This document shows positions 9,463 to 64,000 of a DNA stretch of 64,000 bases, in pieces. Source of the DNA: Combretum micranthum (lineage: Eukaryota > Streptophyta > Magnoliopsida > Myrtales > Combretaceae); assembly GCA_024138025.1 (NCBI GenBank), contig JAMXBD010001213.1:124001-188000 (forward strand), read 5' to 3'. How positions within the stretch are numbered: the first letter of the stretch is position 1; every line of letters starts with the position of its first letter. Position numbers and translations under genes: made by a program. The notes beneath the pieces are model-generated. The model saw only the letters and a list, made by a program, of their open reading frames with translations, was not told the DNA's origin and did no database searches.

Positions 9463-11437
9463 TCCTTCCGAGGTTAGAAATCTCTTAAAAACTTTCTTAC
9501 CATGTCATGTAACATTACATCCATGGTGTGAGTTTCCTAAACTTAATGTTATGAAAGCTACACTATGTTCATGTATTGTTCTTGCTAATGAATATGTATT
9601 CATACATTTTTATGTTGTTATTTATTTTTGTTCATATTATTACTAATATTATGTTAACCTCTTATATATTTAACTAGATATAATTATGTATTTATATAAA
9701 ATCTTTACAGCATATAAAGTTATTGTTATTTATTTATTTCCAAGTTATGAAATTTATTTATTTATTTCATATTATTTTAAGACTACTCTCTAGTCTTAGA
9801 CTTGTGCTCATCAAATCAAAACAATCTTTTCTTTTCTTTTCTTTTTTATTTCTTTTGGGACTAGTCTATTCTTAGTCCCGGGGAAACCTTGATGAAGCTA
9901 AGGTTCCCAATACTTGACATTTCTATTAACTTGCCTATTTTGTTACTTATTATATCTTTCTTATGTTTCATAATTTTATGATTCATATTCATGATCATCA
10001 TGAACATATTGATTTGTCTCAACACAATAAAGAAGGAAAAGTTTTTTTAAAATAGAAGTTCTTCTCCAAAAATAAAATGTTGTCATGAAGGAAATGATTT
10101 TTCATAAAAACTTAGCAATTATCTAACAAATCTTTTCTAGAAATCTAGAGGATTTCATCATAAATTTTAGTAACTAAAGAACATAGGAATTTTAAACAAT
10201 ACATACATACACTTACAAAGTCATAATATGGAAAAGAATTCTTCTTTAACAAAAAAATTTTACTAAACTTCATTTTTCCACCAATACTTTGGAACATAAA
10301 GGAATAGTCTAGTGTCACGCCCCAAAGGGTACCCAAAACGCGACAATCCACCACACTCGATATTTAAACTTAAGTATGACAGCCTTAGTCATCCCATAAG
10401 TTTACATACCGGGTGTAAGGTGTATTTGCACAACTTTTAGGATCGCACTTTGAATCGAATAGTCTTAAAAGGCATACAATAGCATTAAGAATAGAAATCA
10501 CAACAAGATAAATAGATTAAGCCTTTACAAAAGTCAAGGGGGCATACCCCTGCCAAAACAATAAATAGAAGTCTATTTAATCTAAAACCATATTACAAAC
10601 ATCAGGGTTTATGTTAAAGAGATTTTTCTAGAAGTCCATGCCTCTAGATAGGTCCCGACTTCTTCAAAAGCTCCTTCATCCAAAAGATAACCCTGTGAAA
10701 AGCGTTCTCTCGGAACAACCAAAAATAGGAACACCACAACAAAACTATCGGGGTGTAGGCTAACAGGCTTAGTGAGATTCATTTCCAAATATTTAATACT
10801 CAACAACAGTACATAACCGACAGGTTATTGGAAACCATATGAATGCACAAACACATGAGCATACAATACATAACGCCGTCCGGAAATCTTATGTTGAATG
10901 GATTTACGCCCTCCATTCGGGGTTAGGTGTTTCAGGCCTATACGATCACATTTTAATTCCTTTTACTTCTTATTTGGGTTGAATACAGGTGCCCATCTAC
11001 CACCTTTAAATTTTTACTATGGTTGATACAAGTGCCCACCCACACACATTTTTAATTCCAGCCCATACGCCAACGTTCGAGTTTACAGGCCCCTCGTTGC
11101 CTAAATTATTATGCCTTCTTCCCACAAAGGTATAATAACTTATGCAATGTGACTCACTACGTGATATGCATGTACAGTTTATTTGTAAATCTTGGCATAT
11201 TAATTAAGCAGATTAAGTGTGATCATAGAGAATTTCAGACAATCCAAGTCTATACTAGCTCACACAAGGATTTTTCAACAATCTCTCTCATATACTTATC
11301 GTTCATTCTAACCAAGATTAGATCACAAATCGTCATAATTTTTCTTTTTCCTAATTCTAATGCTACTACGATTACAAGTACATACATGAGTACAACTATT
11401 TAAGAAATGAACTCACTTGGCCATGGAGAGAAATCCA

Positions 11438-11483
11438 CTAGTCGTAGTAATCCTCGGGAGTGGAAATCCGTCCTCCAATTCAC
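11438..11483 (-). other. Decayed candidate Pol tail exon in S1
   Basis: Read on the minus strand from the acceptor CTTAG (11485-11484). The frame starts EDGFPLP, then one missing base in the CCCGAGG run shifts the GATTACTACGACTAG end out of frame. Length is 46 instead of 47 nt to the old stop. Confidence 0.45.
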
Positions 11484-18131: not shown

Positions 18132-18205
18132 GCTATCTGGATGAGGAGTGTTCGTACCCAGAAGATTATTTTGATTATTGGAATTACCCATCGACTCATC
18201 CATAA
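18132..18205 (+). other. Candidate Pol tail exon in E2 LTR (stop lost)
   Basis: After TTAG, GC completes a Gly codon with the pol donor base (8749). The frame runs through YPEDYFD, but the usual stop is TAT here, so reading continues nine more codons to TAA at 18203-18205. Predicted intron: 8750-18131, containing S1 and S2. Confidence 0.5.
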
Positions 18206-19323
18206 GAGAGAAGTATCAACATGGCCGAGTGAGTCTACTCCCCTTATCTTTCATGCTTATGTTTGTGCCTATAAATTTAGTTGTATTAGATTTAAGGCAA
18301 GATAAAATGGAAGTTATATGACAATATGTTGAAAGAATATTGAGTATATCGAAGCATGAATTGCTTGTAATAAATTGTATGCATATTATCACGTTGAAGT
18401 GTTTAAAATTGGTTGATTAGTTGTAAGAAATTAAAATATAATGGCTAGGCTTTAATTAAAAATTTATGCATGCACTTCATATGTTAAGTCACATTGCATT
18501 TGCTATTATACAATTGGTGAGACAAGTGTATGATAGTGGTGGTAGGCATAATCGGTATATCATGTATGTGGCGAGTAGGAGATGGTAAAAACTACACAAA
18601 ATTGGTGGCTAGTACGAGACGGTAATGACTACATGTTTTTAATTGCATAGAGGAGCCGGTAAGATCTATAAAAATGTATTTAAAAGAAGTAGTGGCCGTA
18701 ATGGGCCGGAATATTTAACCCTGAATGAAGGGTGTAATTCATTCAACATATGATTTATGGAAAATCATATTCTTGTATGCTCACGTACTTATTGCATCCC
18801 ATTTGCTTGTTTAATAAACTTGATTGATATTTTGTTTTAAGTATGAATTTTGGGATTTACTCACTAAGCCCGTAAGCTTATGCCTCTATAGATATTTGTA
18901 TTCATAGGAACACCTGTTTTTGTACTCGAGGTCTCCTCTTATCCGCGTAAGTTTTCTTTTGGAGCTTCTGAAAAAAAATCTACTTAAAGGCTTAGATTAG
19001 AATTTCTTTAAAATCTTTTGATGTAGTATTAAATTATTGTAAAGACAATTAGTTATTTCGATTCTTGGAATTTAGCGGGGGTATGCCCCTAAGAATCATG
19101 TAATAGACCTTTGATTATTAATATTATGATCTATTTTATTTCTGGATTCTTGTATATTCATTATTACTTGCTTAGACCACACTTCCCAAAAGTGTTTCCT
19201 ATTACCGTGTTAGACGATTTACATATAATACCAAGACTTTCGCATGGCTAAGGTAGTCATTCTTAAGTCTTGATATCATATATGGTGGACTGCCACATTT
19301 AAGGTACCCTTTAGGGCGTGACA

Positions 19324-19378
19324 AACCAGGTATGAACATCAAGTTTTGAAGGCAAAGCATTCTTTAAGGGGGATAGGT
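19324..19378 (+). pseudogene. E3 pol: last bases, donor site and PPT
   Basis: These 55 bases match the end of pol in E2: ACCAG|GTATGAACATCAAGTTTTGA (donor GT at 19330-19331), then AAGGGGG (19366-19372, PPT) and GATAGGT before the LTR. They are all that is visible of the E3 internal region; the remainder should lie left of E2, outside the window. Confidence 0.8.
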
Positions 19379-20063: not shown

Positions 20064-21862
20064 CTCCATCTCCCTCCATTTCTTTCACACCCTTCTTTCA
20101 TATACCAAAACTCTCTCAAAATCACTCCATAAAATTCTCTCTACAATTCTCTCTACTACTTCTCTGTTTTCTTCCAACCACTAGGTAATTGTCTTAAACT
20201 TCCTTCATATTCATGTGACTTGGTATGAACTTAATTTGTGTTTTCTAAAATCCCATAAGAGTTAAGAAATCAACAATAGGTTTGTACTTTGTTCTTGTTC
20301 ATACATCCATTCTTGTGATTTTAGATTATCAATAGATTGTTTATTATGTTCATATAATTTAGCATGAACATAGTGCATGTTTTTTAAAAACCATAGAGGT
20401 TAAGAAAGCAATATTATATACATGTTTTGTTCTTGTTCTTGTTCTTGTTCATGCATTATGTTTTTATTATATTGCTTTTACTATTATGCTCATATTATTA
20501 TTATGCTTTTATTATTGCTCTATTATTGCTATTACTGTGCTTTTTCTTTCTTTTTTTGCTCTTTTTTTTTTTCTTGAACTAGTCTATTCTTAGTCTTGGG
20601 TTGTCTTGATGAAGCTAAGCTCCCAATACTTGACCATATTATTATGCTCATATTGATTCTTATATATATATATATATATAATCTTATTATGATATTATTC
20701 TATTTCTCATTACTACATATTCATAAACATGAATGTTGATATTGTCTCAACAAAAATAAAAAAGAGTTTTCATAAATGAAGAAAAAAAAAAAGAACCCTC
20801 TATAAAGATAAATTTTTGTCACTTGGAAAATGATTTTTCCATAAAAACTTAAAGTTTTATCTTAAAATCTTTTCCAAAATTTAGACAAGTTCATCACAAG
20901 TTTTTAGTAATAATAGTACATTATATTTCATCAAAGAATACATAAAGTAGATCACGCAAGTCTTTCAAACCAAAAAAATAAGAAGTTTTCTTTAAAAACT
21001 CAATATTGCTAACAAAAGTTTTCTCAAACTTATTTAAGAAGTTATCATCAACACTTAAAATATTAAGGTCTAGACAAGTTTTACAAAATCATCAAAAATT
21101 AACCTTCTGGAAATAAATCTTACTTACGAAATAAAATAAATAAATAACTTAGAAGATCATTATTATTTATTTAAAGTGGAACTAACTTTAGGAAAAATTA
21201 AGAACACATAAACATGACTACTTTAAGAAATTTTAGTCACTACCAAGAAATACTTCAAAAAAATATTTTCAACTACTAGAAATGAAGTTATAGGAATTTT
21301 AAAAATACTAAAATTATTTTTTAGAAAATTAAATTATTTAAAAGGTTAAGAAATAAAATTAAAAGAAGGAAACCTCATTTATAATAATTCAAGAAATTTT
21401 TCCAACAAACCTTTTTCAAGTATTTACTTTTTTCAACCATTAGAACATATTGTTTTACAAAAAAAATTATTGTCGAGACAACCTCACTAAATTCATGCAT
21501 ATAATATGAGACTATATATATATCAAAGGATTTTTCAACTATACAATTATCTATATTTTGGTACAAGAAGTTTTAGATGAAGAAAAGTTTGAAAACTTGT
21601 GTTTTGAAAGCTGGGATTTTCGTGGTGAATTCGTCTCGCTGTTTTGGGACCCAAATGAATTTTTATGATAAAAATAACCTTATAAATGAATAGATTTTTC
21701 AAATAGATAGAAAAAAAGTATATTATATGCAAAATTCAAGTTAAAGTGAGAAGTTATGGCCTTTTTAAGTTGGAATTTCCACCAATACAAATTTTACCGC
21801 AACTAAATGATAGGATTAGAAATTCCTAGAATACTCATTTTGGGTATTTTCTTTTTGCTTAG

Positions 21863-21909
21863 GAAATGATGAGGACGATGTCTACTATCCCGAAGACTAT
21901 TTCGATTAA
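21863..21909 (+). other. Candidate Pol tail exon in E3 LTR
   Basis: 47 nt from acceptor to stop: GA, then 14 codons ending YYPEDYFD, then TAA. The frame matches the E3 pol donor (intron 19330-21862). Confidence 0.6.
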
Positions 21910-22956
21910 GGAAGTATCATCAAGCCATCGCTGAGTGAGTCTACTTCCTTTATTTTTTATACTTATGATTGTACTTGTAATATAGTAGCATTAGATATAG
22001 GAAAAAGAAAATATGGAAAGTCATGTGACTTATAATGTTGGTGAAATAAGTTTAACATAGTGTAAGCCCCGAATTTTTCAAGAATGGTTTTGGAATACCA
22101 AATCAAAACCCTAAAGTTTGACCTAAGTTGAAACCGAACCTTAATCGATTTCGATAACGGGATTTCATAAAAGAATCTTAAAAAAAAAGAAAATACAAAG
22201 TTCAATAATCGTTCGATTGAAAACTCGAGCATGAAAAGACCACCTATCGATCCTGATTTAAATCCCTCAATTTCTAGGGTAAAGTTGGATTAAACCCTAA
22301 CATTAGTCAAACCGGAAATTCGAAAGTCAACAAAGATCAAGACAATCAAGCAATTTCAACTCTGGCAATCCCGCGTTCTCAAACCCTAGAAAACGAAAAT
22401 AAGTTAATGGCTTAAAATAGTTCGTAATAATATAGGTAACATAAAAATATCAGATTCGCGAATTGTTTTAATTGTCTTTTTGAACTCAAACGGGATCAAT
22501 TCTCAAAAAGCATGTTTCGGAGCTCAGAATAATAAAAATATTTCATTAACACCAAAAGACTCGTGATTAAGTAAGGATTTCAAAAATATCAGTTTTAGAA
22601 TTTTTCAGTAACTAAAAATAATAGATATAGCTCGATTACGCGTATTTTTATTACTACCGGTATTTTATATGTCTAGTCTACTATTCATAGTACTATTTCT
22701 ACTATTCATTACTATTTCACTATCTCTACTTTTTCTTACACCTATTTCTTACTACCTACATGCCTATTTTCTTACTTTTTACTTTTCAATATAACTTTAT
22801 TCACATCAAACCTTACATATTATTTCTTTTCATTACAAAAATTAATCAAATCACTCCCTCTTCCTCCTCCTATTACCACCGGCCCCCTCTCTCTTTTCTA
22901 TATATTATTTCTTTTTCAAGTTATTTTATTACATCAAAAATTTACTCCAAAAATTC

Positions 22957-22964: not shown

Positions 22965-24999
22965 CCCCATTCCTCCTTCATTCTTTCACACACTCATTTT
23001 ACATAATAAAACTCTACCAAAATACTCTCTCAAAACCTCTCTCCAACAAATATCTCCCAATACACTCTCTACCAATTCCTATTCTTCAAGAAAAGCAACA
23101 AAAACAAACTACCCCTTTCATCTCTTTTCAAACCTTCCATTAAACCTTAGGTAAAATCCTACTTAAATTTCTTCATCATGTTCATACAACTTAGCATGAC
23201 CTTAGTGTATGTTTCTTAAGCTCATATGAGTTAAAGAAGTAACAATATGTTCATGTTTTGTTTTTATTCATGTTCCTATTTTACATTATGTTGTTATATT
23301 GTTATTATTGTTATTATTATTTTTGCTCTAATCTAACTTATATAATATTATGTATACTATGTATATATATTTATTTAGAGCATATAAGCTCATTTTTTAT
23401 TTATTTATTTTCATGTCTTTCAATTTATTTATTTACTTGTTTTATGCAATTTATTAAGACTAGTCTTTCTAGTCTTAGACTTGCCCATATCAAGTCAAAA
23501 CAATTTTCTTTCTTTCTTTCTTTTCTTTTCTTTTGGGACTAGTCTATTCTTAGTCCCGGGTTGTCTTGATGAAGTTAAGGCTCCCAATACATATCAGTAT
23601 ACCTTGATGAAGCTAAGGTTCCCAATGCTTGACTATTTTATTATGTTTATTTACTTACAAGTATTTATTTCTATCTTATTATATAATATCTTTATTTTTA
23701 CATTGCTACATATTCATGCATGATTAGAATATTGTTGTCTTAAATAAAAATAAAAATGGGTTCTTTCTTAAATAAAGAAAAGTAAACTAGATTTCTTAAC
23801 AAAAGAAATTTCAACAAAAAGACTAAGCTTTGTTTTTAACTCTTTTCAAAGAATAAGTTATCATAATAAAAAGAATTCTTTTCTTTTATAAACCAAACTT
23901 AATACTCCATAAAGATAAAATTTTTAGCCTTGAACTTAAGATTTTAACTCAACCATATCTTTTATAAGACTTAAATAGATTCATTATGAATTTGAAAATC
24001 ACATACTATGAAAGCATCTTCAAAATTTCAATTTTATAATTGTTATTCTCTTTTCAAAATTAGAATGAAAATTTGCTAAAGTTCTAATGTTAACAATTCT
24101 TTATTAAGAAAGCTTTTCTTATAATCTTATCCAAAAGAATTGTTCTATCACTTGATAAATAGTAACAATAAAACAAGTTTTTCAAACAAGGTAAAACCAA
24201 CTCACTATTTTAGAAACCAACTTAAAAAAATAAATTTGACAAGTAAGTAAAGTGTAAGGGTAAACTCATTTCCTGAAAAAAAAAAAAAGATATAAAAATA
24301 AGAAGAAAACATACATTTAACACAACTTCAAATATTTGAAACTTAAAGAATATTTTGAAAAACTTATTTTCAATCACTAGAAATAAAGTTTAGTAGATAA
24401 CTTAAAAACCAAAATTTTTAAAAATGAATTTACTTTTTAAAAGTGAGAAAATGAAATTATAATAGGAAAACATTTACTCATAACAACTCAAATATATTTT
24501 TGTTTTCCTTCTAACAATTCAAAAAGAAGAAATTCTGAAAAGTTTTATCTTTCAAAACCACCAAAGACAAATTGTTTATGGAATATCAATATTGAGACAA
24601 CACTACAAAAATCATGCATACAATATGAGTGCCTATATATGTTCAAAGGATTTTTCAACTATAAATATATACATATATTTTGCTTAAGAATTTTTGAGTA
24701 AACAAAAGTTTGGAAAAACCATATTTTGTGAACTATAAATTCGTAACTGTTTTGTACCGTAATATTTTCCAACCCAAATGGCTTTTTACGACAAAAATAA
24801 CCTTAGAAATGGATAGATCTTTTCAAGTAGGTAGAAAACGGTATATTATATGCGTAATTCCGAGTTAAAATGACCAAGTTATGGCCATTTTAAGTTGGAA
24901 TTACCTTTTATATGAATTTTAACGATCATATGACATAGTTTTTTATAAGTACCATAGAATCAATAAGAAATAGTCATTATGGGTATTCTTCTTGATTAG

Positions 25000-25046
25000 G
25001 TGATCTCGAGGAGGAGTATTCATACTCGGAGGATTATTTTGATTAG
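25000..25046 (+). other. Candidate Pol tail exon in S3
   Basis: 47 nt: GT, then 14 codons (DLEEEYSYSEDYFD), then TAG, directly after CTTGATTAG. Confidence 0.6.
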
Positions 25047-27133
25047 TGGATTTATCGATCGACTCATCCATAAGGAAGATAGATCCTCATGGCCAAGTGA
25101 GTTTATTTCCTACTTTTTACGTACTTGGTTGTGCTTATAGCTAGAGGCACTAGAAGTAGGAAAAGATGAAATTGAATCATGTATGATAATACTGGTTGAA
25201 AGAATGTTAAGTATACCGAGGTATGAATCATTGTTAATTAACCTATGTTTTACTATCATTCTGTTGGAGTGTGTGCAAAATTCTGTGATCATCTTTAAAT
25301 TACTTTAAACATATACTACGAGTTATATTAATTGATTCATGCATATCACGCAGTTAGTTTCATCGCATGAGCTGCTATTCTCGATGGGACAAGAGTTTAG
25401 TAGCCAGTGTGCAGTAGCCAGAAATCTGCAAAATGGGCGATTAGGAGCCTGAAAGAACTATGTGATGATGGGCAAGTAGGAGCCTAAAATAAACTACATG
25501 AGTTGGATTTAAAATGGGTTTAAAGCTTGGAACACCTAACCCTGAATGGAGGGTTAAATCCATTCAAACATATGATTTCCGGTAGATCATATGTATTGCT
25601 TGATCACTTGTTTGATGCATTCATATGCTTATTCAATAACTTGATTGAAATTATTTATACAAGTACTTTGATTCAAGAATATTCTCACTAAACTAGTTAT
25701 GCTTATTCTCCAATAGACCTTTGTTGTAACAGGACTATATCTTTTATGCCCGAAGACTTTATATACTCAAGAGGGATGATGTTTTAGAAAGCGTATGGGA
25801 ATCTTTTTAAGATCTTAGGTTAATCATCATTCAATGTCTTATGACGTTAGTATTATTTGGTTGTGAAAAGATTAAGTTGTTATTATGATTGATTGGAGAA
25901 TTATAAGGGAAAAACCCTAAGATGATGTAAGGATTATATTCTCTTAATGATAAATTAGGTGTTTACTTAGATTTTTGTATGCTATATTTACTATCTCAAA
26001 CTATACATCCTACCGGTGTCTCCTATTATTGTGATAGACGCCTTGCATATGGTGTTGAAAACTTTCGCATGACTTCGGGAAGTCATTCTTAAGTTTTAAT
26101 ACCATATGTGGCGGACTGCCACGTTTAGGGTACCCTTCGGGGCGTGACACATATCGAGTCATGAATTGCCTATAATGAATTGTATGTTCTATTAGCATGT
26201 TGAAGTGTCTAAAATGGTTGATCACTTGCAAGAAATTGAATATAAATGGCTAGACTCTACTTAAAACTTAATGCATATACTTCACAGTTAAGTCTCATTG
26301 TATTCGCTATTATACAATTGATGGGACAAGTGTATGATAGTGGTAGTTGGTATAACTGGTAGAATCTGTATGTGCGAGTAGAAGCTGTAAGAACTACACA
26401 AATTGACGGCGAGTAGGAGCAGGTAAGATCTACATGTATTTGGTGGCGAATAGTAGCCGTAAGAACTATAAATGGTTTTGTTAAAATTGTTGGTTGTAAT
26501 TGGCTGGAATATCTAACCCCGATTGAAGGGCGTGGGTTCATTCAACATATGGTTCCCGAAATACCATATGTCTTGTATACTTATATGTTTGATACATTTC
26601 ACTTTCTTGTATAAATAAATTTGGTCGATATCTTTGTTTCGAGTATGTAAATCGAGAATGTTCTCACTAAGCTTGTAAAGTTTACATTACTATAAATTTT
26701 TGTATACGCAGGATCATTCGTTCCTTTATCTAAGGTCTTTGCATATCCGAGTAAATCTTCTTTTTGAGAGTTTTTAGGGAAATCTACTCGAAGATTTATA
26801 ATAGACTTCCTTTAAAATCTTTTGATGAGCTACTTAAGTTATCTTGTAAAAACTAGTAACTTTTATATTATCCTTGAAGATTAGCGAGGGAATGCTCCTA
26901 AGACTTGTGTAATGGAATATTAAATGTTATTTGTGGGTTAACTTTATTTCTAGATTCTTGTATGTTCATTATTATTTACTTAAACCACACTTCCCAATGG
27001 AAGTGCATCTTCTATTATCGTGTTGTACACCTTACATATAATATCGAGACTTTCACATGACTGAGATAGTCATTCTTAAGTCTTGATATTATATGTGGCG
27101 ACTCCATGTTTAGGTACCCTTCAGGGCATGACA

Positions 27134-38983: not shown

Positions 38984-39308
38984 GCTAATGCTCCATCCCC
39001 GTCGTGAAATGAATGAGTCCAATTATAATTGAGGTCCAATATAGATTAATCCAATTCTTTTAGGTGACCAACAATTATTCGCAGACAATCAATAAAATCC
39101 TCGCTAAACAGCAGCAGCTTAACACCCGGTTTCGATATTCTTTAAGTTCAACTTCACATATCAACAGCAGATAAGTATATAATTCCCATATACCCATCAT
39201 GCATAATCGTTTTTATCTTTGCCTAAACAACTAATGCCACTATCAATACAATCACAACAATAATTGAGAGCGGAAGTAATACTCACTCGGCCATGGTACG
39301 CCGGTCTC

Positions 39309-39355
39309 TTAATAGTAGTAGTCGGGTGGTAGGGTATCGTCTTGCTCGGGATCAC
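39309..39355 (-). other. Candidate Pol C-terminal tail exon (E4 3' LTR)
   Basis: 47 nt on the minus strand: GT, then 14 codons (DPEQDDTLPPDYYY), then TAA. It follows CTTATTTGTAG. The codon split by the predicted intron (41717-39356, 2362 nt) is G|GT, matching the phase of the pol donor at 41718. Confidence 0.65.
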
Positions 39356-41670
39356 CTACAAATAAGAACAACCTAATAAGAATCTCATCACTAAACTAAT
39401 TCAAGCTATGCATCTAAACTACACAAAATCGGAATTCTCGCTATCTGCGGAAGTTCCAACTTAAAACGGCCATAACTTGGTCATTTTAACTCGGAATTTC
39501 GCAAATTTTATATCGATTTCTATCTACTTCGAAAGATCTATCTATTTCTAATATTATTTTCAAGTTTTGAAAACATTAAGGTCACGGAACAGTGGGATCA
39601 GATCTGTTCTGTAACTTTCCTCTTTCCGAAAAATTGTTTCGCAATTGGTAAAAATGTTTCTAGTTGATGATTCATGTATAGATGGTATATGAATGAATTC
39701 CTAGTATAAATGTCATGTAATGAGTTCAATATATGCATGGTCTTGATGATTTTTTTGATGATGAACTCTCATGAACTCCTAATTATCATAAAACTCCATG
39801 ATGGTCACTTCTAAAAATCTATTCTTTCCTACTTTGCATTCCTTAGGGTTTTTAGGATTTTATTCTTGGAATTTACTTGTTATCTAAATAAAAATGAGTC
39901 CTTAGCATCTATACTACCCATGACCTTCACTTATGCAATAAAATCCACATTTTTCACTTGGCAAATATGTTTTTAAACAAGCTTTTCACAAAAATCCGAA
40001 TTTTGGAAATTTTCTTTTCTTGCATTTTTCCTATGAGAAAACTTGTTTAATGCACCAAAATTTGAAGCTTTATTATATCTATTGTCTAAGGACTTCATTT
40101 AGCTCATAAAACATTCAATTTAAGCTTGAATACTATGTGTTCATGTGGGCATTATTCCAAATTACGAATTTAACAATCTAATCACTATCTCAAGATTTTC
40201 CATTCTAACTCCACTACTTGTTTTACATACTACTCATGCCTAAACTCATTCAAACTTGTAAAAATCATTCCTTAAAGATACCTATTACATATACTCTTCA
40301 TTTTTCATGTAAAATATGAGTTTCAAAGTGGTTTTAGTGGTTTTTAAAATAGGGTTCCAAAATCATCCGAATTTTCATAAAACATTTCTAGCAAAAATCT
40401 TTTCTTTTTCAAGTTTCTCTTCATATACATGAAGATCTATCATCTAACACATCTATACACATGCAAGCTAAGCTTTTATGATCGTTAATGCATGAAAACT
40501 CAAGATAACCATATGAACATCAATGTATATGAAGGCATGAATGTCTAAACACTAGATCTACCATATATAGTGTATGAATCATGAGTTTCATGGCATGAAC
40601 CTAACTTTCCATGCAAGATCCCTACTTTACATGCATGAACATAACATTATCTCAACAAAAACTATTTTAAACACTAGATCCACTTCTTATGATGGCTTGA
40701 TATTCTTGCATTAGTGTTTTCATGTCCCTAGCATATGCTCATTGGGATTAAAAGTGGAAAACACACAAGAATGGTCTTGCCATTAGAAGATAATGTAGGA
40801 ATAAGGTTTAGAATCATCACCTAAATAGAGATTTGGAGATGAAAAGAAGAGAAAATGAGTTTGTGTGTGTGAGTGTGAGGGGGCTAGGTCACGGCACAAC
40901 AAGGAAAAAAAGAGAGAGTTTTCTTCTTTGCAAAATTTTGAAAGAGTGAAAAATGAGAAGAGGAGAGAACATAAGCTTATATACTAAATGGATTAGGGTT
41001 TTAATTGAATAAAGAAATAAAAATAAAACAAAAATGAGGGGAATTGGGAAGGGGGGCGCCGGCCATGGGTGTGGGAGGGAGAGAGGAGTTGAAATTTGAT
41101 AAAATTTGTATTTTATGTAATAAAATGTAATAATTGTATTAATTAATTAGGAAACAAAATTTCTTGGAAAAGAAAATTGTAATGAGTAGTTGTAAGGATG
41201 TAAGAATAGGGTATGGGTAGTGTGTAGTGTAGGTTGTACTTGTGAATAGTAGACAAGACATCTACTTTACCGGTTGTAACGAAAACACGGGAAAAAGCTA
41301 TAACTGTAATTTTTATAGCCGAAAATTATAAAATTGATATTTTTGAAATCCTTATAAAATTTCGGTTCTAATGAATATTCCGAATATTTTTTGAGTTTGT
41401 GGTCCCGGGGCACGTTTTTCCGTAATTGAGCTCGGAAGGCCCGGAATTGAAAAATTCCCGAATTTAAAACTTTCTAAGGTTTAAAATACTACTTTAAAAC
41501 AATAATTCATATTCATTTACTTTATAAAACTTCTTTTATTATGAAACCGAAGGAAAGCCGGATTTAGGGTTTCTAAGCTTCTCTCACTAGACTTAAACTG
41601 GACTGGATTAGGGTTTCGCTTTTCAACTCCCGGGTTTACTTAACTACTGAGAATACCGGGTTTACAACCT

Positions 41671-41682
41671 CCCCCTACCTTA
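41671..41682 (-). promoter_or_regulatory. E4 polypurine tract
   Basis: Minus strand AAGGTAGGGGGA, followed by GGT and then the LTR start TGTAAACCCGG. Confidence 0.75.
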
Positions 41683-41717
41683 AATAGAGTTTTGTCCTCA
41701 AAACTGAACTGACGTAC

Positions 41718-42082
41718 CTTGTCCTTCAAATAACTCGGGGTATTTTCTTCGGATCTCCTCCTCAGCTTCCCAAGTTGCTTCCTCAAAGGCATGATTTCTC
41801 CATAATACTTTAACATAGTGGATGTCCTTGTTCCGTAGCCTTTGAGTTTTCTTATCCAATATCTTCACGGGTGTTCTTCGTATGTCAGGTTTTCCTTCAG
41901 TTGGATCGGTTCCAATTCCAAATCCTTTCTGGGTCGGCCACATACTTTCTCAATACTGACACATGGAACACGTTGTGAATCCCGGATAGATTTGGTGGTA
42001 AGCTAGCCGATACGCCAGATCTCCACTCTTTCCAAGATTTCAAAAGGTCCAATATCTCGGGCTCAGCTTTCCTTGTGTACAC
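41718..42082 (-). pseudogene. pol: E4 pol: GPY/F module and chromodomain-like C-terminus
   Basis: Two overlapping frames give the module after the integrase core (LPPNLSGIHNVFHVSVLRKY, 42000-41930) and then VKILDKKTQRLRNKDI, HYVKVLWRNHAFEEATWEAE and RRKYPELFEGQ. The last block is the chromodomain-like tail that in chromoviruses is thought to guide integration to heterochromatin. A one-base shift near 41930 separates the two frames. The end carries CAAG|GTACGT (donor GT at 41717-41716), nearly a perfect plant 5' splice site, in phase 1. Unspliced translation ends seven codons later with TSVQF and TGA at 41698. Confidence 0.85.
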
Positions 42083-45958: not shown

Positions 45959-46620
45959 AGTTCTCCCTTTTGTTTAACATGGAGGAAGTCAGCACTATAC
46001 TTTACTCTCAAGCTGGAGGGAAAGTAATTGTCCAAAAATTCCCGGCGAAAAGATTCCCATGTAACCGGGGAAGGCAAGCTTCTTCTCTTAGAGTCCCACC
46101 AGACCCTCGCATTATATCTCAACATATAAGTTCCATATTCCACTTGTAAATAAGGTGGAATCTCATATGCAGCAAAAGATCGCTCAATTTGAGCTAGCCA
46201 ATCCTCGGCTTCGTCTGGTTTACCAAACGCTCCATCAAAATACCGGTTACTCTTAATGAAGTCCGTAAAGAGCTTCGTGGGGTCTTCGGTATGGTGGAGG
46301 TGGTGGCATGGGCACATTGTAGGAATGCTCCTCCTGTGGAGCAGGTGCTTCAGCAGTCACTTCCCTGTGATCTGCAGGTGGTGGATGTGGAGCAGAATCC
46401 CGGACACTTTGTCCTTGGTGCGGGTTCTGAACTGGGTTTTGGTTCTGGATGAATGTATTCAAGAGATTGGCTAATTGTCCAATCGTTCAACACATGACCC
46501 TGCTGATTCTGAGGTGCAACTCTTTAAGGATTAGGTTGAGGCACGGCCGGTTGGTCGGCTTTGTTCGGGAGAGATTCGTGCTCCCGATTCCGAATCCGTC
46601 GGTTTCGTCTGTTTACACAT
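45959..46620 (-). pseudogene. gag: E4 gag: N-terminus and capsid-like domain
   Basis: A plausible start is the ATG at 46620-46618 (MCKQTKPTDSESG). A low-complexity Pro/Gln/Glu region leads into MPPPPPYRRP, then after a frameshift near 46280 come LFTDFIKSNRYFDGAFGKPD, EDWLAQIERSF, ARVWWDSKRRSLPSPVTWES and FRREFLDNYFPSSLRVKYSA, the retrotrans_gag fold that builds the virus-like particle shell. A second shift near 45970 (GELWNSM in place of GELTVEQYE) passes into the zinc-knuckle frame. A stop also interrupts the N-terminus near 46530. Confidence 0.85.
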
Positions 46621-47165: not shown

Positions 47166-48422
47166 TCACTCGTCACTAGTATCATCGGAGGTCGAACTAG
47201 GAGGTTGTCCCCTACTAGAAGAACCACCATCGTCCTGTCGGACGAACAAACTAAGGTATTCCCTTACATTCATCCTTCGCCTCCTAGTGGGTCGGACTAA
47301 AGGGTCTTGATCTTGTTCTTCACTTATAAACCCCGGGAATTTTTCACATTAGTACAAGACCTTATAATAGATTTCATAAACTAGATAATAGATTTAGATT
47401 CTGATTGAAGTCTAATAATAGATTGATATTTAGATTTTGGATAGATGAAGAATTTAGGAATCGAATAAAGAAATTCTTTAACCCTAGTTAATACCAAAAA
47501 CGAGATTTCGTATCTTGAATAAATAATTCAAGATATGATCTAAAATTTAGACCCGAAACCTGATATACAAATAGATTTAAATAGAAAATATGAATATAAA
47601 GATTAAATGATTGTTTTTTATCCCGATAATGATTCGAGATTAGAATAACGAGTAGTAATGAGTTTATAGTTAGACTTAAGCCCTAAATTCGAGATTCCTA
47701 GTTAAAATTAAAAGCTACTATTAAGAATTTAGGTTCAGTATCAAAACTACAGATATATATAGTTTGATTTCTGTATTAAGTCCAATATTGCATAAATGAT
47801 TATTTATGCTTATAAACAGAAAACGACGAACCCAAAATGAACCGTTAAGATTTTAAATACACAACGAAAATATAAACTGTCAAATAACTCAAAATCTAAA
47901 CTCCAAATAAATAATCGGATCACGCTATTGTTCTAAACCGAGTTTTCTTAAGCTATTGAGGTCTGAAACAAAATTTGACCTAACGAGCTTAAGAAATCCA
48001 AATCGCGGGAGATAAAATTATACGAATAAATAACTACGTATATATATAACCTAAATTTGTATTATTTGAAAATCTAAGTGGTTTGTATAACTTTATACAC
48101 ATTTTTTGTACAAAAAATTCCAAATATTAATTAATTTATACTCGTATAACTCGTTTAATTATCTCAAAACTTAATTAGAATAATAAACTAATATATATAT
48201 ATGTTTTTTGGCTGAGTTTCGGTGGAAAGGGGAGAAGAAAGAGGAGTCGAAAGTTAGCTTCAATAATGCAACAAAAAGTCCACAAAAATCAACCACACAA
48301 CCAACCAAACATTGCCAAATAAGCCTCACATTAATTACATGAAAAATAACAGATGAAGAGGCAGCAAAAATCGGAGGAGAATTCGAAGGAAACAGCCGCA
48401 ACTTCATCCTCCTTTCTTCTTC

Positions 48423-48430
48423 TATATATA
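48423..48430 (+). promoter_or_regulatory. LTR TATA box (S5)
   Basis: TATATATA after CTTTCTTCTTC, followed by an A-rich leader. Confidence 0.55.
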
Positions 48431-48934
48431 CATGAATATTCAATGCTCATTATGGACAACAAACAAACCTCATCAATTCTTATACTCCTCAGCACGAAAC
48501 TACATTCAAACATAAACCAAAACGAGCCAAAAACAGAAATCAAACTAAGCAAAATACTAGAGTTCGAATCAAAAGAGAAACAAAGCTAAAAACCCTCAAA
48601 AACGAGCTCAAAGGTAAGTTGATATGATTCAAAGGATTTTCGTTCAAATATATGGATTGTAACTGACTTATAATTATCTTAGGAACTTAATAAACACAAT
48701 CACGAGCTTCGGATTGCATCGAACAAGCTCCAACAAGGTAATAATTCAAAACCCTAGCTTTATGTTATACGAATCGAGATCTATATATTTATGTTTTTAA
48801 ACGTGTTGAAAGTTGTTTTATATCCTTATATATGATATATAGACCCTTAGAAGTAGTTAGAGTATGTTTCTAACGTGTGAAAATCAAAGAAAAAGAATTG
48901 AACCGAGGAGGAAGATGATGAATAGTAAAATACT

Positions 48935-49210
48935 GCCTCAAGGCCGGCAGTGTAAACATTAACACCGGCGGCTTACATGGATAGGCCGGCGGCTTATAGG
49001 CGGCTTACATTCAACAGAGGCTACGTAAAATAATTTTTCACGTAAAAATTAAACGTAAGCTGGCTTTCTAGAGATCTACGCCGACGGTGTAGGGCCGGCG
49101 TACGTTGAAAGCCGACAGCTTTCAACACCGGTGCACTCGATATGAAATAACTTACAAAATCAATTTTACACCGGCACCTGGGGATGAAGGCCGACGGCTT
49201 TGAGCCGGCA
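48935..49210. repeat. GC-rich GCCGGCGGCTT patch in S5
   Basis: Repeated words GGCCGGC, CCGGCGGCTTACA, GCCGACGGTGTAGGGCCGGC and GCCGACGGCTTTGAGCCGGC in an otherwise AT-rich LTR. S4 has no equivalent. Confidence 0.8.
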
Positions 49211-49643
49211 TACGCCCAAATTTTCTTAACGAAAGCATATTTTCAAAAATAAACAGAATATATATATATCTTAAGCCTATTTAGTCTATTATATATATTT
49301 ATATACACAACAATATAAGAATTATTACATATGATTAGAATAACTAGATTAATATCTACTAACTTTTAAAACCCTAGAATTAAGAAAAATATTTGGTATT
49401 AATTAAAGTTAGTATTTGTCTAATGTTTGTTTTAACAAGGTAAAATAGGTAAGAATGGAAATTGAAATAAACTAATTTCTTGAGTAATGTGACTTCTAAA
49501 AATAACAAAACAATTATGCGAGATAAAATAGGAGAAACACGACAACACTAAGTAATAATAATTACCAAAATATCGAGTCTAGGACACTAATCACAAATAG
49601 GAATTTAGTTAAATTGTATTAACGAATACTTTATCTTAAATAG

Positions 49644-49690
49644 GTGACTTTGACTCATTAGAGGATCTACCAGCGGATTACTACGACTGA
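49644..49690 (+). other. Candidate Pol tail exon in group B LTR S5
   Basis: 47 nt after TTAAATAG: GT, then 14 codons (DFDSLEDLPADYYD), then TGA. Same length, phase and ending as in group A although the surrounding sequence is largely unlike group A. Confidence 0.6.
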
Positions 49691-51719
49691 ATCAGTATGA
49701 GCAGGTGAGTAATTCAGTCATATTGTACTGATTGTGATTGTAAATAGTCAAATATGTAATGCAAGATGATCAAATGAATGTTTGCTGAAGGTATGATTGG
49801 ATGAAGGTATGATTGGATATGAGTGTATGATTGTTAAAAGATCCTTATAAAAGCGATAATGCGATGATTGAGGTTATGAAATAGTGTAATGATGAGTGTG
49901 TGTAATGTATGGTCACCTTGAAATTGATTAAGAATTATTAACTTAACAAAATAATAAGAACATGCATTACACAAATTGCATTATTGCATATATGGTTGTG
50001 ACAGCCTGCTACGTGTTAATATTTCGAATCTCTGTTTTCGCTTGGTTGATCTAATGTGTAAGTTCTTCCAAGGTTCTCTTTGGTCTGGCGGTCCTATGAG
50101 GAACTAAAAGGCACCAAAGAACGTCGCTCATAGAATCGCTTTGAAATGATTAATACTTAGGGAGTTTCTAAGGAAGTTGCAGGAGATAGTCAGTTTAATC
50201 TATATTAATAGTGATAACTTAAAATGAGAAATTGCTGATGCTCCTGTGTACTTAGTCTCTCCTGAGCAGGTGGGTCATTAAGATTTGGTTCTTCAACCCA
50301 TTAAAAAGAAGGCGTAAATCTTTTTCCTGTTTGGATTCTAGATCATCCAAACTTGTATCTGAGCATATGGTTGAGTGCTTGCATTGCATATGATTTGTTA
50401 ATGACTTGTGTGATGTATGGTATGTCTGGTTATTCACTAAGCTGTGGTTTCGCTCATACTCCTACAGTCTTTTCAGGTTCACTTTACGACCCTGGTTAGT
50501 TACATCCAGGAATATGGCTCCTGTAAGAGCTTTGAAGCTAGAAGCCTACAGATCTATTTTAGTTTAATGGTTATGTACTATTAGATTAGATTATTTAGTT
50601 GTGTACTACAAAAGAACTATATGGTTTGTAATAGTTTTGTAATGTTTATTCCCTAAGTCATTTCTCTCATATATTTGTTATTTCTTATCAAGCAAACAAA
50701 AAGATCCTGTTGTTTTGAAAACCTGTCATTCTCTGAAGGTAATCTAGTGATGGTATTCAAGTGTAACTTGTTTACTACTACTAGGGTACCCTCGGGGCGT
50801 GACATCACTTGCCTCCTCTTCTTCGGTTCCTTGTCCTTCCTTCGGGCTCACTTCTTCCTCATCACCTCTTGTTTCGATTTCACCTACTTGGTTCTCCACT
50901 ATCTTGGGTTCTCTCATAGGCCCTCCACCCACATTTTCAACTTCCATAGGCTCGGAGGCCACAGGTTCCACTACTGCCAGATCAAGCACAAGTGGATATT
51001 CACCCTCAATATAAACATCCCTCCATAACATGGGATCTAATTCAGGTTCTATCTGGTATCTCCAATACCCGATTAAAATCCCACACAATTTGATTAGGTT
51101 TCGGATTCACTCCCACTTCCGGCTCAATGGGTGGGGTAGGGGTTCTAGGGACTACATTTTCCTCCCAATTAGGATCCTCCTCGGGGTCCTCTTCTTCTTC
51201 ATTAACTTCATTACCCTCTCCAATCACAGGTGCACCATTCAATTGCATACCTATGTTACTAGCTGGTGGTGGAGCAATTACACGTGGCGGAAGAATGTCT
51301 AAGTAAATCGCATGCCATGTAATATGGTTCCAGGCATCCGCTATGTTCCAATCATGGTGGTCATATAAATCATCATGGGCATACACATATAGAGGTCCTA
51401 TAGGGATCCACACCCTGAAGTCTGGAGGGGTCCGGTTTCCCCCATTCTTCAAGATAAAAGTAGCTTCCCTAGTCATGGGCTCATGCCAATATTCTACCAT
51501 GATTCTTTCTAAGGTATAGACTGTCTCCAACTTAGTCCAATTCCTTCTTCCCATAGGATCATATCTCAGTTGGTCGACCACAGTGGCCCATCTAGTGTAT
51601 CTCAATCCTTCTTTCCACAATTTGAACTTCTCCCCTATAGTCCGGGGGTGCCTGGCTAGAGCAAAATCCTCACACAGCTCTCTTAATCTTAATATGTATT
51701 CCACCATGGTCTCATCCAT

Positions 51720-51909
51720 TCTCTTGGTGAAATTTCTAGCCTGTTCCCTGGTCTCACCCAAGGAGACCTACAACAACATAAGACTCCTAATTAGAATTAA
51801 CAAGGAAAATATTTTCAACTCCATTTGAACCTATTAGTTAGATTTCTAAGTTCGGTTTCTTTTAATTCCATTGTCTTGTCTTATAACCTAGGGCTTGATA
51901 AACTTAAAC
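51720..51909 (-). other. E4 leader with degraded primer-binding site
   Basis: Directly after the 5' LTR end the minus strand reads GTTTAAGTTTATCAAGCCCTAGG. TTTATCAAGCC (51902-51892) resembles TGGTATCAGAGCC with several changes, as in a decayed tRNA-iMet site; the E5 site is much better. Near 51756 CTTGG|GTGAGA is donor-like, between a GTTGTTGTAG acceptor-like stretch and the ORF1 ATG. Confidence 0.45.
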
Positions 51910-52510
51910 TGTCATGCCCCATAGGGTATCCTAAATGTAACAGCCCGCACCATATATATAGACTCTGAAATTCTATCCGAGCCCTTCGGGAGTCTTGTAT
52001 AGATGTAAGTGTTCCTTTACGACAATAGAATAGACTCAATGGAGTTAGAAGTTTAATGTGGCATTCATTAGCCATAGATAATAAACCAAAACACATATAT
52101 ACTTTACAAAGTCTAAGGGGCATTCTCCCGCAAAAATAATATTAAGTCCATTACAGTCATCCAGAGTCCTTTAGTTTCCAATGGAAGTCTAAACAAAATC
52201 GAATAAACTTCTAAGGGAAACTAGCTCCGGTACCTAAGCTGTAGCCTGCCTTGGCCTAAGCCAAATGAATTCATGCTGCAACAAGTAAAAACTATAGAGG
52301 CGTAAGCAAATTAGCTTAGTGAGTGAAAACTTCCATATCACAATTGAGACAAATCATTCAAACAAGTGGTTACTCAACAAATGATATGCATCAAGCAAAT
52401 GAGTTCAACAAACATATGACCATCGAAAATCATATGTGGATGGACTTGCGCCTCCATCCGGGTTAGCAGATATTAACGAATCCTGCGGTACGACGCGTTT
52501 AGCTCACGAT

Positions 52511-52680: not shown

Positions 52681-53003
52681 GCTAATGCTCCATCCCCATC
52701 GTGAAATGAATGAGTCCAATTATAATTGAGGTCCAATATAGATTAATCCAATTCTTTTAGGTGACCAATAATTATTCGCAGACAATCAATAAAAATCCTC
52801 GCTAAACAAGCAGCAACTTAACACCCGGTTTCGATATTCTTTAAGTTCAACTTCACATATCAACAGCAGATAAGTATATAATTCCCATATACCCCATCAT
52901 GCATAATCATTTTTATCTTTGCCTAAAACTAATGCCACCATCAATACAATCACAAACAATAATTGAGAGCAGAAGTAATTCACTCGGCCATGGTCGCCGG
53001 TTC

Positions 53004-53050
53004 TTAATAGTAGTAGTCGGGTGGTAGGGTATCGTCTTGCTCGGGATCAC
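53004..53050 (-). other. Candidate Pol tail exon in E4 5' LTR
   Basis: Identical in encoded sequence to the 3' LTR copy (ends LPPDYYY, TAA), 47 nt, after CTTATTTGGTAG. Confidence 0.6.
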
Positions 53051-56772: not shown

Positions 56773-57780
56773 TGTTACGCCCCGAAGGGTACCCTAAACG
56801 TGGCAGTCCACCATATACAATATTAAAGCCTAAGAATGACTGCCTTAGTCATGGGAAGGCTTCCATACTATGTGCAAGGCGTCTAACACATGGGGGAGAC
56901 ACATCGGAGTGATACATTTTATGTTGATATAACTTGAGTAACGATGTAAAGGAATTTCAATTTACTATACTCCAAATACAAAACATTATACTTCAATTAC
57001 AATTCGTCAAAAGATTTCACTACATAAACTATTACAAGGCAAATCATAAAACCTAGCTAGTAACTTCAAGCATTCTTATTCCTTGCCAGAATCTCGAAGT
57101 CATTATCAGCTCCAACCATCACGGTCCCCACTTAGCATTCTTGAGATAACCTGTTTAAGCAAACATCTATTGGGGCATAAGCTACACTAGCTTAGTGAGT
57201 AAGAACTTCTAAGATTACATTTATAACACATCATACAATCAAGTGATTAGTCAGACAAGTGATATGCATCAAACATGTGAATTCAACAAACATATGACCA
57301 GCCGGAAATCATATGTGGATGGACTTATGCCCTCCATCCCGGGTTAGCAGATTAACGAATCCTGCAGTACGAATCGTGGCCGTTTCAGCTTACGGTCAAC
57401 TTTGAACTATAAATTCGTTTAAGGACAATGATTAACCAACAAATGCTAATTCTCCAACCCCATCATGAGATGAATGAGTTCAACTTCGTCTTCAATTCCG
57501 AATAATCAATTATACCAATTCTTTTATGTGATCAATCAATATCCACAGACAATCAAGACAATCAATCTAATTCATCTATACAAGCAATAGTTAATCACTC
57601 AGCTTCAATATTCTTACGTTCCATTTCTCATATCAATAAAAACCATACATAGTTCCCATTCATCCCCATCATGCATATCCATTTTATCTTTACCAAATAT
57701 CTAGTGCAATTATTATTACAATCACATACAATAAATGAAATCGGAAGTAATACTCACTCGGCCATTGGATCACTGGTCTC

Positions 57781-57827
57781 TTAGTACAAGTAATCCGGTG
57801 GTAAGGAATCGTCGATATCGGGGTCAC
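57781..57827 (-). other. Candidate Pol tail exon in E5 5' LTR
   Basis: 47 nt after CCTTTTTTAG: GT, then 14 codons (DPDIDDSLPPDYLY), then TAA. Confidence 0.6.
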
Positions 57828-60770: not shown

Positions 60771-62590
60771 CCCCCTCCTCTTTCACTTCTTTCACACATT
60801 CACTACCCACAAATTCATACCAAAACTCTCTCAAAATACTATCCCAAAACTCTCTCAAAATAATCCCACAAACTTCCACCAACAACAAAAACCCATAACC
60901 ACATAACCATACCAAAGTCTCCTTTAGGTAACTACCTTCTTTTAATTTCTTCTTCTTCATGTCATGTAACTTTACATGACCATAGTGTGAGTTTCCAAAG
61001 ACTACAAGTTATGGAAACTACATTATGTTCATGTATTGTTCTTGTTCATGAAAAATCTATTTACGTTCTTGTTATTATTTGTTCATATTATTGCTACTAT
61101 ATCTAAATATTATTATCTATATTATATATATATATACATATTCTTTAGAGCATATAAGATCACTTGCAATTTATTTATTTCATGCAAAGCAATTTATTTA
61201 TTTATTCCATTGCAATTTATTTATTTATCCCTTGTTATTCTAAGACTAGTCTCTAGTATTAGACTTGTTCTCATCAAGTCAAAACAAGTTTTTCTTTATT
61301 TCATTTTATTTTGTTATGGGACTAGTCTACTTCTTAGTCCCAGGAGCCTTGAAAAAGCTAAGACTCCAATACTTGACTTTATTAGCTATGTTTTATGCTA
61401 TTTTGTTTACTATTACTCTCATAATCATGTTCATTTAGATTGTTGTCCAAAAATTTTAATTTCTAAAGATAATTAAACAAAAAGAAGAATTTTGTCACTT
61501 AGAAATAAGTTTACTTAAAGTATAAAATCTATAAACTCAATCCTTTCAAGTTATAAAAAGAACTCACTATAAATTTTAGAAACTACTTTTACTTTAAAAA
61601 GCTACTTAAACCTTATTATTCCACCTTGTTTTTCAAAAGAAAATATTTGTTGATACAAAATGGTTCTTTTATAAAGAAAATAAGACGAATGGCTAAGGAA
61701 TTTTCAAGTAAAGACCTTTACAAACAAATAGGCAAAGAAAATCTAGGTTTGAAAACAAAAGAAAGTTATTCCTCTTCAATTACAAGAGGAAATCAATAAG
61801 ATTTAGAAACTAGTTTTACTACAAAGAGTTCTTAAATTGTCCATATTGTTTTTATGAAGAAAACAAATTTTCATGCATTGATTTTATGAAAACATAAGAT
61901 ATGAGGAAAGGATGAGAAATTTCAAAGTAAAGATTTTTGCAAAACAAATAAACAAAGGAATTTGCACAAGAAAAATAATTATGAAGAATAGCATATTTTC
62001 TAAGAACTTCAAAATAGTATTAGTGTAGCTTAGAAAGTAGAAGATTTTATTTTCAAAAAGGTTACTTAGGAAAGATAAATAAAACCAACATAAAACGTTT
62101 TTAGAAAACAAAGAAAACAAGGTATTCATTTCAAAGAAATTTACAAAAACAATTTCCGAAAAGCTTCAAACCAACATTGTTTTACCTAAGAAAAATAATT
62201 GGACAACAAGACACATGAGCATTCTTAAATATGAGTTATATAGTTATAAAAAGAGAATTTTTCAACTATATAGATAACTAAGTATTTATCAAACAAATTT
62301 TGATTTCTTGAACCAAGGTTGTTTTTACTTGGAAATCCGTGGTGAATCTTTTGCCACGTTTCAGAGCCTATATGGCTTTTTTTGTTGAAAATAATTTTGG
62401 AAATGGGTAGAAATTTTTGAGTAGGTAGAAATCGGTATATTATATGCGCGATTCCGAGTTAAAATGACTAAGTTATGGCCATTTTAAGTTGGAACATTCA
62501 TTTATACGAACTTTAACGTTCTTTTGACATTGTTTGTCAAAATTCAAGAAAATCATCAGAGAACTTATTATGGGTATTTTCTTTAGTTAG

Positions 62591-62637
62591 GTGACCCCGA
62601 GGAAGGATTCTTTTACCCCAAGGATTATTACGACTAA
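62591..62637 (+). other. Candidate Pol tail exon in S6
   Basis: 47 nt: GT, then 14 codons (DPEEGFFYPKDYYD), then TAA. Confidence 0.6.
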
Positions 62638-64000
62638 GTGGAGTGTGTGAACGACTCATCCACCTAGAGAAAAGTCGACATGGCATCGTGAGTTTATTTC
62701 ATTAAAAGCTATACTTGTTGTGCTTGTAAATTAGTTGCATTAGAGTTAGGAAAAGATAAACCGATGTGTATGTAAAATAATTCCTTGAAAGAATTATTAA
62801 GAATATCGAAGCCGGAATTGTTTTAAATGATTGTTTTAGTATAGTATTGATTTGTATGAAATTCTTTGATCGCCTTAAATTTAAAAATAATTATGCTATG
62901 ACTTTATAAATAAATGAATTCATACATACTACGAAGTGAGTCACATTTCATTTGGGTTATTATCCTTGGGTGAGAAGGATAGTAAGCTCATGTCGAAAGC
63001 AACACTTGGCGGGAGATCCGAAGCGATTGCTTGGCGACTTAATGGAAAATGCTTGGCGGAAGATCCGAAAGCAAGGTCAATCAGGTAGATTCGGAATGCT
63101 TGGCGATGAGTGCTCGCGAGCATGAAAACTTTTTAATTAAAACTACTTGAATTGAGGTTATGTATCACCAAACCCGAATGGAAAGCATAAATCCATTCAA
63201 CATATAGTTCCCGGAAAACTATATGCTCGTTTGCCCACGTGCTTGTTGCATTAGATTTGTTTGTTTAATCAACTTGTTTGAAATCTTGTTACAAGAAGTT
63301 ATTTATGGAAATAGTTATCACTAAGCCTATTAACTTACACCCCATAGATATCTTTTGCAGTTTCCTTACTTATGGTTAAGGCCACGAGGACCTTACGGGC
63401 AGGTAATCTCTTTTGGATAATAGAAATTTAGATAAAGTGTAGCATTAATATTGATGTACAAATATCCATGTAATAGATTAGTGATCAAGAAGAAATGTCC
63501 CTAAGTTTGTAAAGCCATTGATATGAATGAATATATTATGAATCCTCTTTTCTTAAATGTGTTATTTATATCTTCTTAAACTTCATAATTCCATATATGG
63601 TCCTCTAAAGTTGTGAAAGCACGCCTTACACTTAATATAAAAGCTTTTGGAATGGATAAAGTTGTCATACTTAAGCTTTAATATTGAGTGTGGCGGACTG
63701 CACGCTTAGGGTACCGTTGGGGCGTGACAAGTTATAAATGCATGAACACTAAGATAGTTATGTGAATGATATATGCATAAATCATAAGCAAAACAAAAAT
63801 AATAACTCAAATAACAAGATTTAAAGCATAAATAAAAATCAAAGCTACAAAAAGTTAGATCTACAAATATAACTACTTTTAGCAAGAAAATAATAATAAT
63901 ACAAGAGAGCACTCATGGATAAGAGGAGTGTTTCATTTTGGCATCATCATCCTTAGCTTTTAAGCTTAGGGAAAGTCATTTGATGCATGAAACTCTACTA

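Follow-up and report, generated by a model that had tools for sequence, protein, structure and literature searches.

A long terminal repeat exon that probably both starts Gag and ends Pol in a Ty3/gypsy retrotransposon family of Combretum micranthum

We analysed a 64,000-nt stretch of the Combretum micranthum genome (assembly GCA_024138025.1, contig JAMXBD010001213.1, positions 124,001 to 188,000 of the forward strand; hereafter the window, in which all positions are numbered). The window has a GC content of 32% and contains numerous copies, nested in one another, of a single superfamily of plant Ty3/gypsy long terminal repeat (LTR) retrotransposons, of which those designated E1–E5, S2, S3, S5, S6 and Sm1 are considered here. 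This plant Ty3/gypsy family is probably one of chromodomain retrotransposons and presumably Tekay-like. Open reading frames (ORFs) in the window matched the Pfam families RVT_1, RT_RNaseH and zf-CCHC, the named best matches of the reverse transcriptase (RT) in a protein search were mostly plant reverse transcriptase proteins, and the chromodomain of the window copies looks homologous by eye. The LTRs are about 3.4–3.9 kb long and occur in pairs, with a purine tract preceding the LTR start and the sequence TTGGTATCAAAGC, which we take to be the primer-binding site (PBS), just after the LTR end; the two LTRs of E4 are 94% identical. The initial annotation of the window proposed that Pol is completed by splicing from the chromodomain into the 3' LTR of the same element. 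Here we describe the predicted splice sites and the putative LTR exon concerned, and a probable second role of that exon at the start of Gag.

A predicted 5' splice site at the end of pol was found in four elements, with the sequences and coordinates given earlier: TCAG/GTACG in E1 (1948–1953, +), TCAG/GTATG in E2 (8750–8755, +), CCAG/GTATG in E3 (19330–19335, +) and CAAG/GTACGT in E4, after the chromodomain (41712–41717, −; first intron base 41717). All four read CAG/GTA or AAG/GTA and lie 48–51 nt before the LTR, and they rank in the top 0.1–0.2% of the 6168 GT sites of the window; this and all site scores below were obtained with an approximate plant matrix and ranked among window sites. 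By translation, the chromodomain frame of E1 (KYPNLFKES), E2 (KYPNLFEES) and E4 (KYPELFEGQ) runs up to the donor, which splits a Gly codon behind its first base (phase 1). The earlier statement that the donor always follows the first codon base holds for these three, whereas the E3 donor stands a few bases past the end of another LTR, with no adjacent pol before it in the window. E1, E2 and E3 are apparently nested in one orientation (1–27131, +), with E1 inside the pol of E2 and E2 beside the pol-end donor of E3. Unspliced, the pol frame would, as judged by eye, stop short of the LTR in E2, E3 and E4 and within its first bases in E1. We also read 200 kb around the window, giving 264 kb in total, in which six of seven chromodomain ends carried CAG/GTA or AAG/GTA within about 10 nt. 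These six comprise the three window elements with pol, one further element of the E4 kind, one with TCAG/GTAATT in the same phase, and one with TCAG/GTAAAT in which a stop codon lies just upstream of the donor.

Inside the LTR, a predicted, pyrimidine-rich 3' splice site (top 0.1–5% of sites) opens an exon of 61–97 nt, hereafter exon 2, in ten distinct LTR copies of the window and in the second LTR of E4. The distance from the pol-end donor to this exon is 2527 nt in E1, 2533 nt in E3 and 2362 nt in E4. The first two exon bases complete a GGN codon in all ten copies, and in the seven undamaged copies the first 47–50 nt form a frame in the phase set by the pol-end donor, which encodes, after the Gly, an acidic, Tyr-rich tail of 14 codons (15 in E1) and then a stop codon. 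The exon is richer in GC than its flanks (46% versus 30%). In the 3' LTR of E4 (39287–39355, −), the tail GDPEQDDTLPPDYYY and its stop (39355–39309) are followed by ATGGCCGA/GTGAGT. The corresponding tails are GIEDQDLVFPEEYFNS in E1 (4475–4538, +; then ATGGACGA/GTGAGT), GNDEDDVYYPEDYFD in E3 (21863–21934, +), GDLEEEYSYSEDYFD in S3 (25000–25096, +; then ATGGCCAA/GTGAGT), GDFDSLEDLPADYYD in S5 (49644–49704, +; then ATGAGCAG/GTGAGT), GDPDIDDSLPPDYLY in E5 (57758–57827, −; then ATGGCCGA/GTGAGT) and GDPEEGFFYPKDYYD in S6 (62591–62687, +; then ATGGCATC/GTGAGT), each closed by a stop codon. The three damaged exons, which add to those listed by the initial annotation, are those of E2 (18132–18228, +; ATGGCCGA/GTGAGT), where the stop codon is lost and the LTR is split by nested insertions, and of S2 (15456–15549, +; ATGGCATC/GTGAGT) and Sm1 (11417–11483, −; ATGGCCAA/GTGAGT), where small deletions interrupt the frame. 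By eye, S5 (47325–50804, +) resembles a solo LTR that went into the leader of E4 and is flanked by a 5-bp target duplication (TCACT).

In agreement with what had been reported, E3, S3, S5, S6, E5 and both LTRs of E4 all have exactly 47 nt to the stop. E1 ends in FPEEYFNS, with its stop at 50 nt. The use of all three stop codons also held for the window, where TGA occurs in S5 alone, but did not extend to the 43 uninterrupted copies of the wider sample described below, which do not include S5 (TAA in 24, TAG in 19, no TGA). The second LTR donor, placed earlier at 15–60 nt past the stop, was measured at 14–50 nt in the seven intact copies.

To assess coding in the tail frame, we aligned eight copies without gaps, leaving out S2, Sm1 and the second LTR of E4 and keeping E2 despite its lost stop. 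In the predicted frame only, the BLOSUM score, 1.95, exceeded that of all 5000 shuffles, which averaged 0.22 and peaked at 1.44, and identities at the three codon positions were 0.62, 0.65 and 0.34, with the third position the most variable. A conserved non-coding block of the same LTRs, used as a control, was not significant in any frame. In a scan of both LTR strands, which kept windows where five or more rows were free of gaps and the score was not negative, z exceeded 4 in 3 of 1123 scored windows, all of which overlap this exon in this frame. The explanation that a DNA or RNA signal (for packaging, as a splicing enhancer or as a small interfering RNA target) rather than a protein is conserved here draws on the presence of other strongly conserved non-coding blocks in the LTRs and on the occurrence of frameshifted exon copies; since the changes cluster at third positions and in a single frame, the signal disappears when the frame is rotated and the conserved non-coding block has no codon pattern, we regard it as extremely improbable. 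One such strongly conserved non-coding block, AGTTAAAATGACCAAGTTATGGCCGTTTTAAGTTGGAA, lies about 100 nt upstream of the exon, for example at 39460–39503 (−), and has 30,093 near matches genome-wide.

Based on a profile of the 150 nt upstream of the exon, built without S5, 37 LTR copies were identified in the 264 kb, the acceptor being taken as the AG nearest the profile end and set by hand for two copies (left 62116 and left 96893). The stop is at 47 nt in 21 of these and at 50 nt in six (five of the E1 type and one with an extra Tyr codon); the remaining ten carry a frameshift, a lost or additional stop codon, or a stop at 44. Twenty-six copies are uninterrupted, and after removal of near-duplicates 19 remain, whose score was reached by none of 2000 column shuffles. 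Chance sharing by descent from one master copy might be suspected, as the copies are all from a single superfamily, some of them near-identical, but each of the 19 de-duplicated copies encodes a different peptide of one common type and third-position change is in excess, which leaves this explanation with very little probability.

The family is abundant in the genome: a 38-base anchor upstream of the exon gave 30,093 matches in 1.86 Gb with up to two mismatches, and the reversed anchor gave none. Among 20 of these matches that were fetched, all exact and on the plus strand, the stop was at 47 nt in 17 and at 44 nt in frame in one, with one copy frameshifted and one unreadable. Combining both samples, 43 of 57 copies were uninterrupted (11 of the 37 were dropped, together with L039, L040 and L044), and over 18 independent pairs among them the ratio of nonsynonymous to synonymous change (pN/pS) was 0.27, compared with 0.85 and 1.39 in the shifted frames; none of 300 shuffles was as low. 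Together with the recovery of the stop and the shuffle tests, this indicates that the tail frame is under protein-level selection. The earlier suggestion, drawn from third-position differences, that selection acts on protein rather than DNA is borne out by the shuffle tests, the LTR scan and this comparison of synonymous and nonsynonymous change. The splice sites, their phases and the selection on the frame can all be read from the DNA itself. A spliced tail best explains the pattern of codon phases, and the selected frame is the one predicted by the pol donor. These results support the proposal that Pol would gain an acidic, Tyr-rich tail from the LTR exon.

The 3' end of exon 2 points to a further function. 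The string ATG plus 5 nt plus GTGAGT occurs nine times in the window against 0.32 expected, and every occurrence ends such an exon. The ATG is followed by 5 nt before the donor position in 32 of the 37 copies, by 2 nt in one and by 8 nt in another, which keep the same phase, while the ATG or donor is lost in three; ATG plus 5 nt plus GTGAGT was also present in 18 of the 20 genome-wide copies. It is the sole ATG of the exon in eight of the ten window copies, most of which read ATGGC, a plant start context; in E3 the ATG is lost and its position now reads ATC. In the 5' LTR of E4, where the exon stands in the position of a start-codon exon (52984–53050, −), the donor is now GTGAAT. The initial annotation treated the second donor as near enough to the stop to avoid nonsense-mediated decay; it missed the likely role of this site, which would be to close a gag start-codon exon when the LTR is at the 5' end.

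The N-termini of gag agree with such a role. In E4, a putative gag 3' splice site, GTAAACAG/ACGAAACCG, was found at 46608–46610 (−; first gag-exon base 46608); homology to a relative starts at this point, and no ATG occurs in the gag frame between the preceding stop and the break in the frame. Four gag N-termini in the flanks show AAACAG/C (two), AAACAG/A and CTGTAG/A, all of which need two upstream bases, and this fits an exon-2 donor that leaves two bases of a codon. In all five cases, the 3' splice site is in the matching phase and no ATG stands in frame between it and the stop before it. One flank gag is preceded, in order, by an LTR exon ending in ATGGACGA/GTGAGT, the LTR end, the PBS and the gag acceptor. 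This start-exon evidence is independent of the pol tail, and so would also fit an exon that serves gag only, its tail frame being a relic of former pol splicing, with pol now ending a few codons past the chromodomain; the early end of unspliced pol soon after the donor in E2, E3 and E4 suits the same idea. Against this, pairs of related copies still give the low pN/pS reported above, and the pol donor is strong in four window elements and recurs in further elements of the contig, so that we consider a relic quite improbable.

Upstream of exon 2, the LTR leader that follows the TATA sequence contains 3% G and no ATG in 818 nt (six copies, with the transcription start assumed 32 nt after TATA), and ends in AG/GTRA. 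This leader exon 1 lies at 40821–40952 (−) in E4 (TATA at about 40984, no ATG, ending ATTTAG/GTGATG), at 2710–2856 (+) in E1 (TATA at 2678, no ATG, CCTTAG/GTAAA), and, all on the plus strand, at 13736–13879 in S2, 20087–20184 in E3, 22988–23150 in S3 and 60794–60927 in S6. In the 22 of 48 U3 copies with both a TATA and a donor, we counted 9 ATGs before the leader donor and 157 in equal lengths after it. The leader bears on another explanation of the conserved frame, namely an upstream ORF in the 5' leader that controls translation of gag and stops just short of its AUG, with Pol uninvolved. The exon does lie directly upstream of the gag AUG in the 5' LTR, and the joining frame of exon 1 is open in S2 and E4. 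Since exon 1 has no ATG in any of the six window copies, however, no AUG-started frame enters from the leader; the joining frame contains a stop codon in four of the six, and the phase of the conserved frame is that set by the pol donor. An upstream ORF appears very improbable as the explanation.

Taken together, the best explanation is an LTR with an ATG-free leader exon 1 and an exon 2 that would, by splicing, start Gag from the 5' LTR and end Pol from the 3' LTR, an account in which we have high confidence. In the 5' LTR, leader exon 1 would be spliced to exon 2, bringing the AUG (MA-, MD- or MS- in the window), and a further splice, two bases into codon 3, would join exon 2 to the gag exon on the far side of the PBS. 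At the other end of the element, pol would be joined, from the donor after the first Gly base, to exon 2 of the 3' LTR and so gain a tail of about 15 residues and a stop. We infer that splicing occurs, and with it three introns: one inside the 5' LTR; one between the 5' LTR exon and gag, which would span the PBS and in E4 would include the 5' LTR end and a degenerate PBS (51891–51915, −); and one between the end of pol and the 3' LTR exon, which would span the polypurine tract (PPT), U3 and the leader and would include the E4 PPT directly before the 3' LTR (41667–41685, −). The spliced RNA would yield Gag and full Pol and lack the PBS and PPT, serving as the protein template. The unspliced RNA alone would keep the PBS, PPT and U3 and act as the replication template; translation from that AUG would cover just three codons, as GTGAGT supplies an in-frame TGA. 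The poly(A) site would have to lie beyond exon 2. As to function, our guess is that the tail might be a C-terminal protein-binding tail on integrase.

Several observations weigh against this explanation. The exon-2 donors lack G at −1 in nine of ten copies and rank only in the top 3–34% of sites, S5 alone being strong (0.1%); leader donors rank in the top 3–11%, and the E4 gag acceptor in the top 22% of AG sites. One of the seven chromodomain ends nearby (left 93264) has no donor, at least two flank copies (left 33810 and right 18354) open the exon with AT and would give no Gly, and a simple search found no TATA plus donor in 26 of 48 U3 copies, which may be truncated, damaged, different or missed. 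The copies share ancestry, and picking uninterrupted ones flatters the zero-stop count. In the genome-wide sample, the acceptor search tried several AGs and stopped at the first that gave 44, 47 or 50 nt; the acceptors chosen lie at one place (136–138) in 19 of 20. In several gag N-termini, ATGs occur in frame some tens of codons past the junction, so that a shorter Gag lacking the LTR start codon is possible, and the relative P0005 also has one 8 codons upstream of the junction. The downstream ATGs lowered our confidence by a very small step, leaving it high. An additional ORF also sits between the LTR and gag of E4, and relatives outside the family gave mixed results at the pol end, as described below.

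This additional ORF of E4 lies between the 5' LTR and PBS and gag (51761–51042, −) and has an acidic C-terminal part. It continues in another frame towards 50805 and, by eye, past S5 to about 46990, being broken by the frame change and by the S5 insertion. It had no Pfam match, and its structure prediction was uninformative (pLDDT 38); it is either an additional ORF of the element or a nested fragment. Joining the LTR ATG to this ORF was considered and rejected, as the acceptor at the ORF is in another phase.

A scan of prokaryote genomes gave nine contigs. Of these, L001, L002, L003, L004 and L008 carry plant-type pol in bacterial assemblies (Mycobacterium, Streptomyces and others), presumably as contamination. 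The pol end was compared in L001, L002, L003 and L008; L004 ends before it, and L005, L006, L007 and L009 (34–59% identity) were left out. The chromodomain matches (PF00385) of L001 and L002 scored 24.9 and 21.1 bits, both under the cut-off of 25.1. After the chromodomain, L001 has a donor in the same phase, TTAG/GTAAAT; its LTR, whose leader ends in CCAG/GTAAGT, is truncated before the place where exon 2 would be expected. Among the results that count against the proposed arrangement, L002 has a donor at the same place in another phase (GAG/GTAAGT), L003 and L008 have no convincing donor, and a simple filter found no such exon in two other families of the contig. LTR introns may therefore be old, with the shared exon shown only in this superfamily. 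Scans of a viral collection with RT, as single sequence and as alignment, and with gag found no relatives, and tblastn against phages and plasmids gave nothing useful. Rfam gave no match at gathering thresholds, and protein searches matched gag and RT proteins, none of them informative for the LTR or the pol end.

Coding frames that begin or end in an LTR are known from Ty1 Gag and from retroviral Nef and Sag; in these, coding overlaps the LTR at one end, unlike one exon spliced at both ends. In centromeric retrotransposons of CRM group A, which are also chromoviruses, the polyprotein region reaches into the 3' LTR (Neumann et al. 2011, PMC3059260). The parts of that report consulted mention neither splicing nor introns, whereas the extension described here would need an intron of 2.4–2.5 kb, the unspliced frame stopping before or at the LTR. 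Ogre, of the Ty3/gypsy Tat group, is likewise a plant Ty3/gypsy element with an intron, which is spliced from a subset of transcripts and enables the whole polyprotein (PMC6317226); that intron is internal, and the text seen mentions no LTR exon. A 2025 review, as far as its accessible portion goes, describes plant LTR elements as generally intronless with few exceptions, and reports a spliced subgenomic RNA for EVADE. Among Ty1/copia elements, BARE1 splices to make Gag, packages a different RNA and uses distinct RNA pools for translation and replication (PMC3735527), and the sunflower elements Tyran and Varan are spliced (PMC7730604). Spliced subgenomic RNA is common to these four and to the scheme proposed here; according to the excerpts at hand, theirs come from internal introns and give short Gag or other isoforms, not an LTR coding exon. 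We found no description of LTR introns or exons of this kind, and no match for an LTR exon that starts Gag and ends Pol, in the open-access literature searched (PubMed Central; subscription journals and preprints were not covered).

A long-standing question is how LTR retrotransposons share a single transcript between making protein and copying their genome. It is probable that in this family a single exon serves both ends, the start of Gag and the C-terminus of Pol, with introns that remove the PBS and the PPT and U3 so that protein-making and replicating RNAs would differ; related LTR introns may be widespread in the clade. Both uses would act on the same sequence because the two LTRs are remade alike in each round. 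If this is true, the LTR exon would answer the question by structure: only unspliced RNA would keep what reverse transcription needs, and only spliced RNA would make this Gag and full-length Pol. The family is large, and annotation that is blind to LTR introns could truncate its Gag and Pol.

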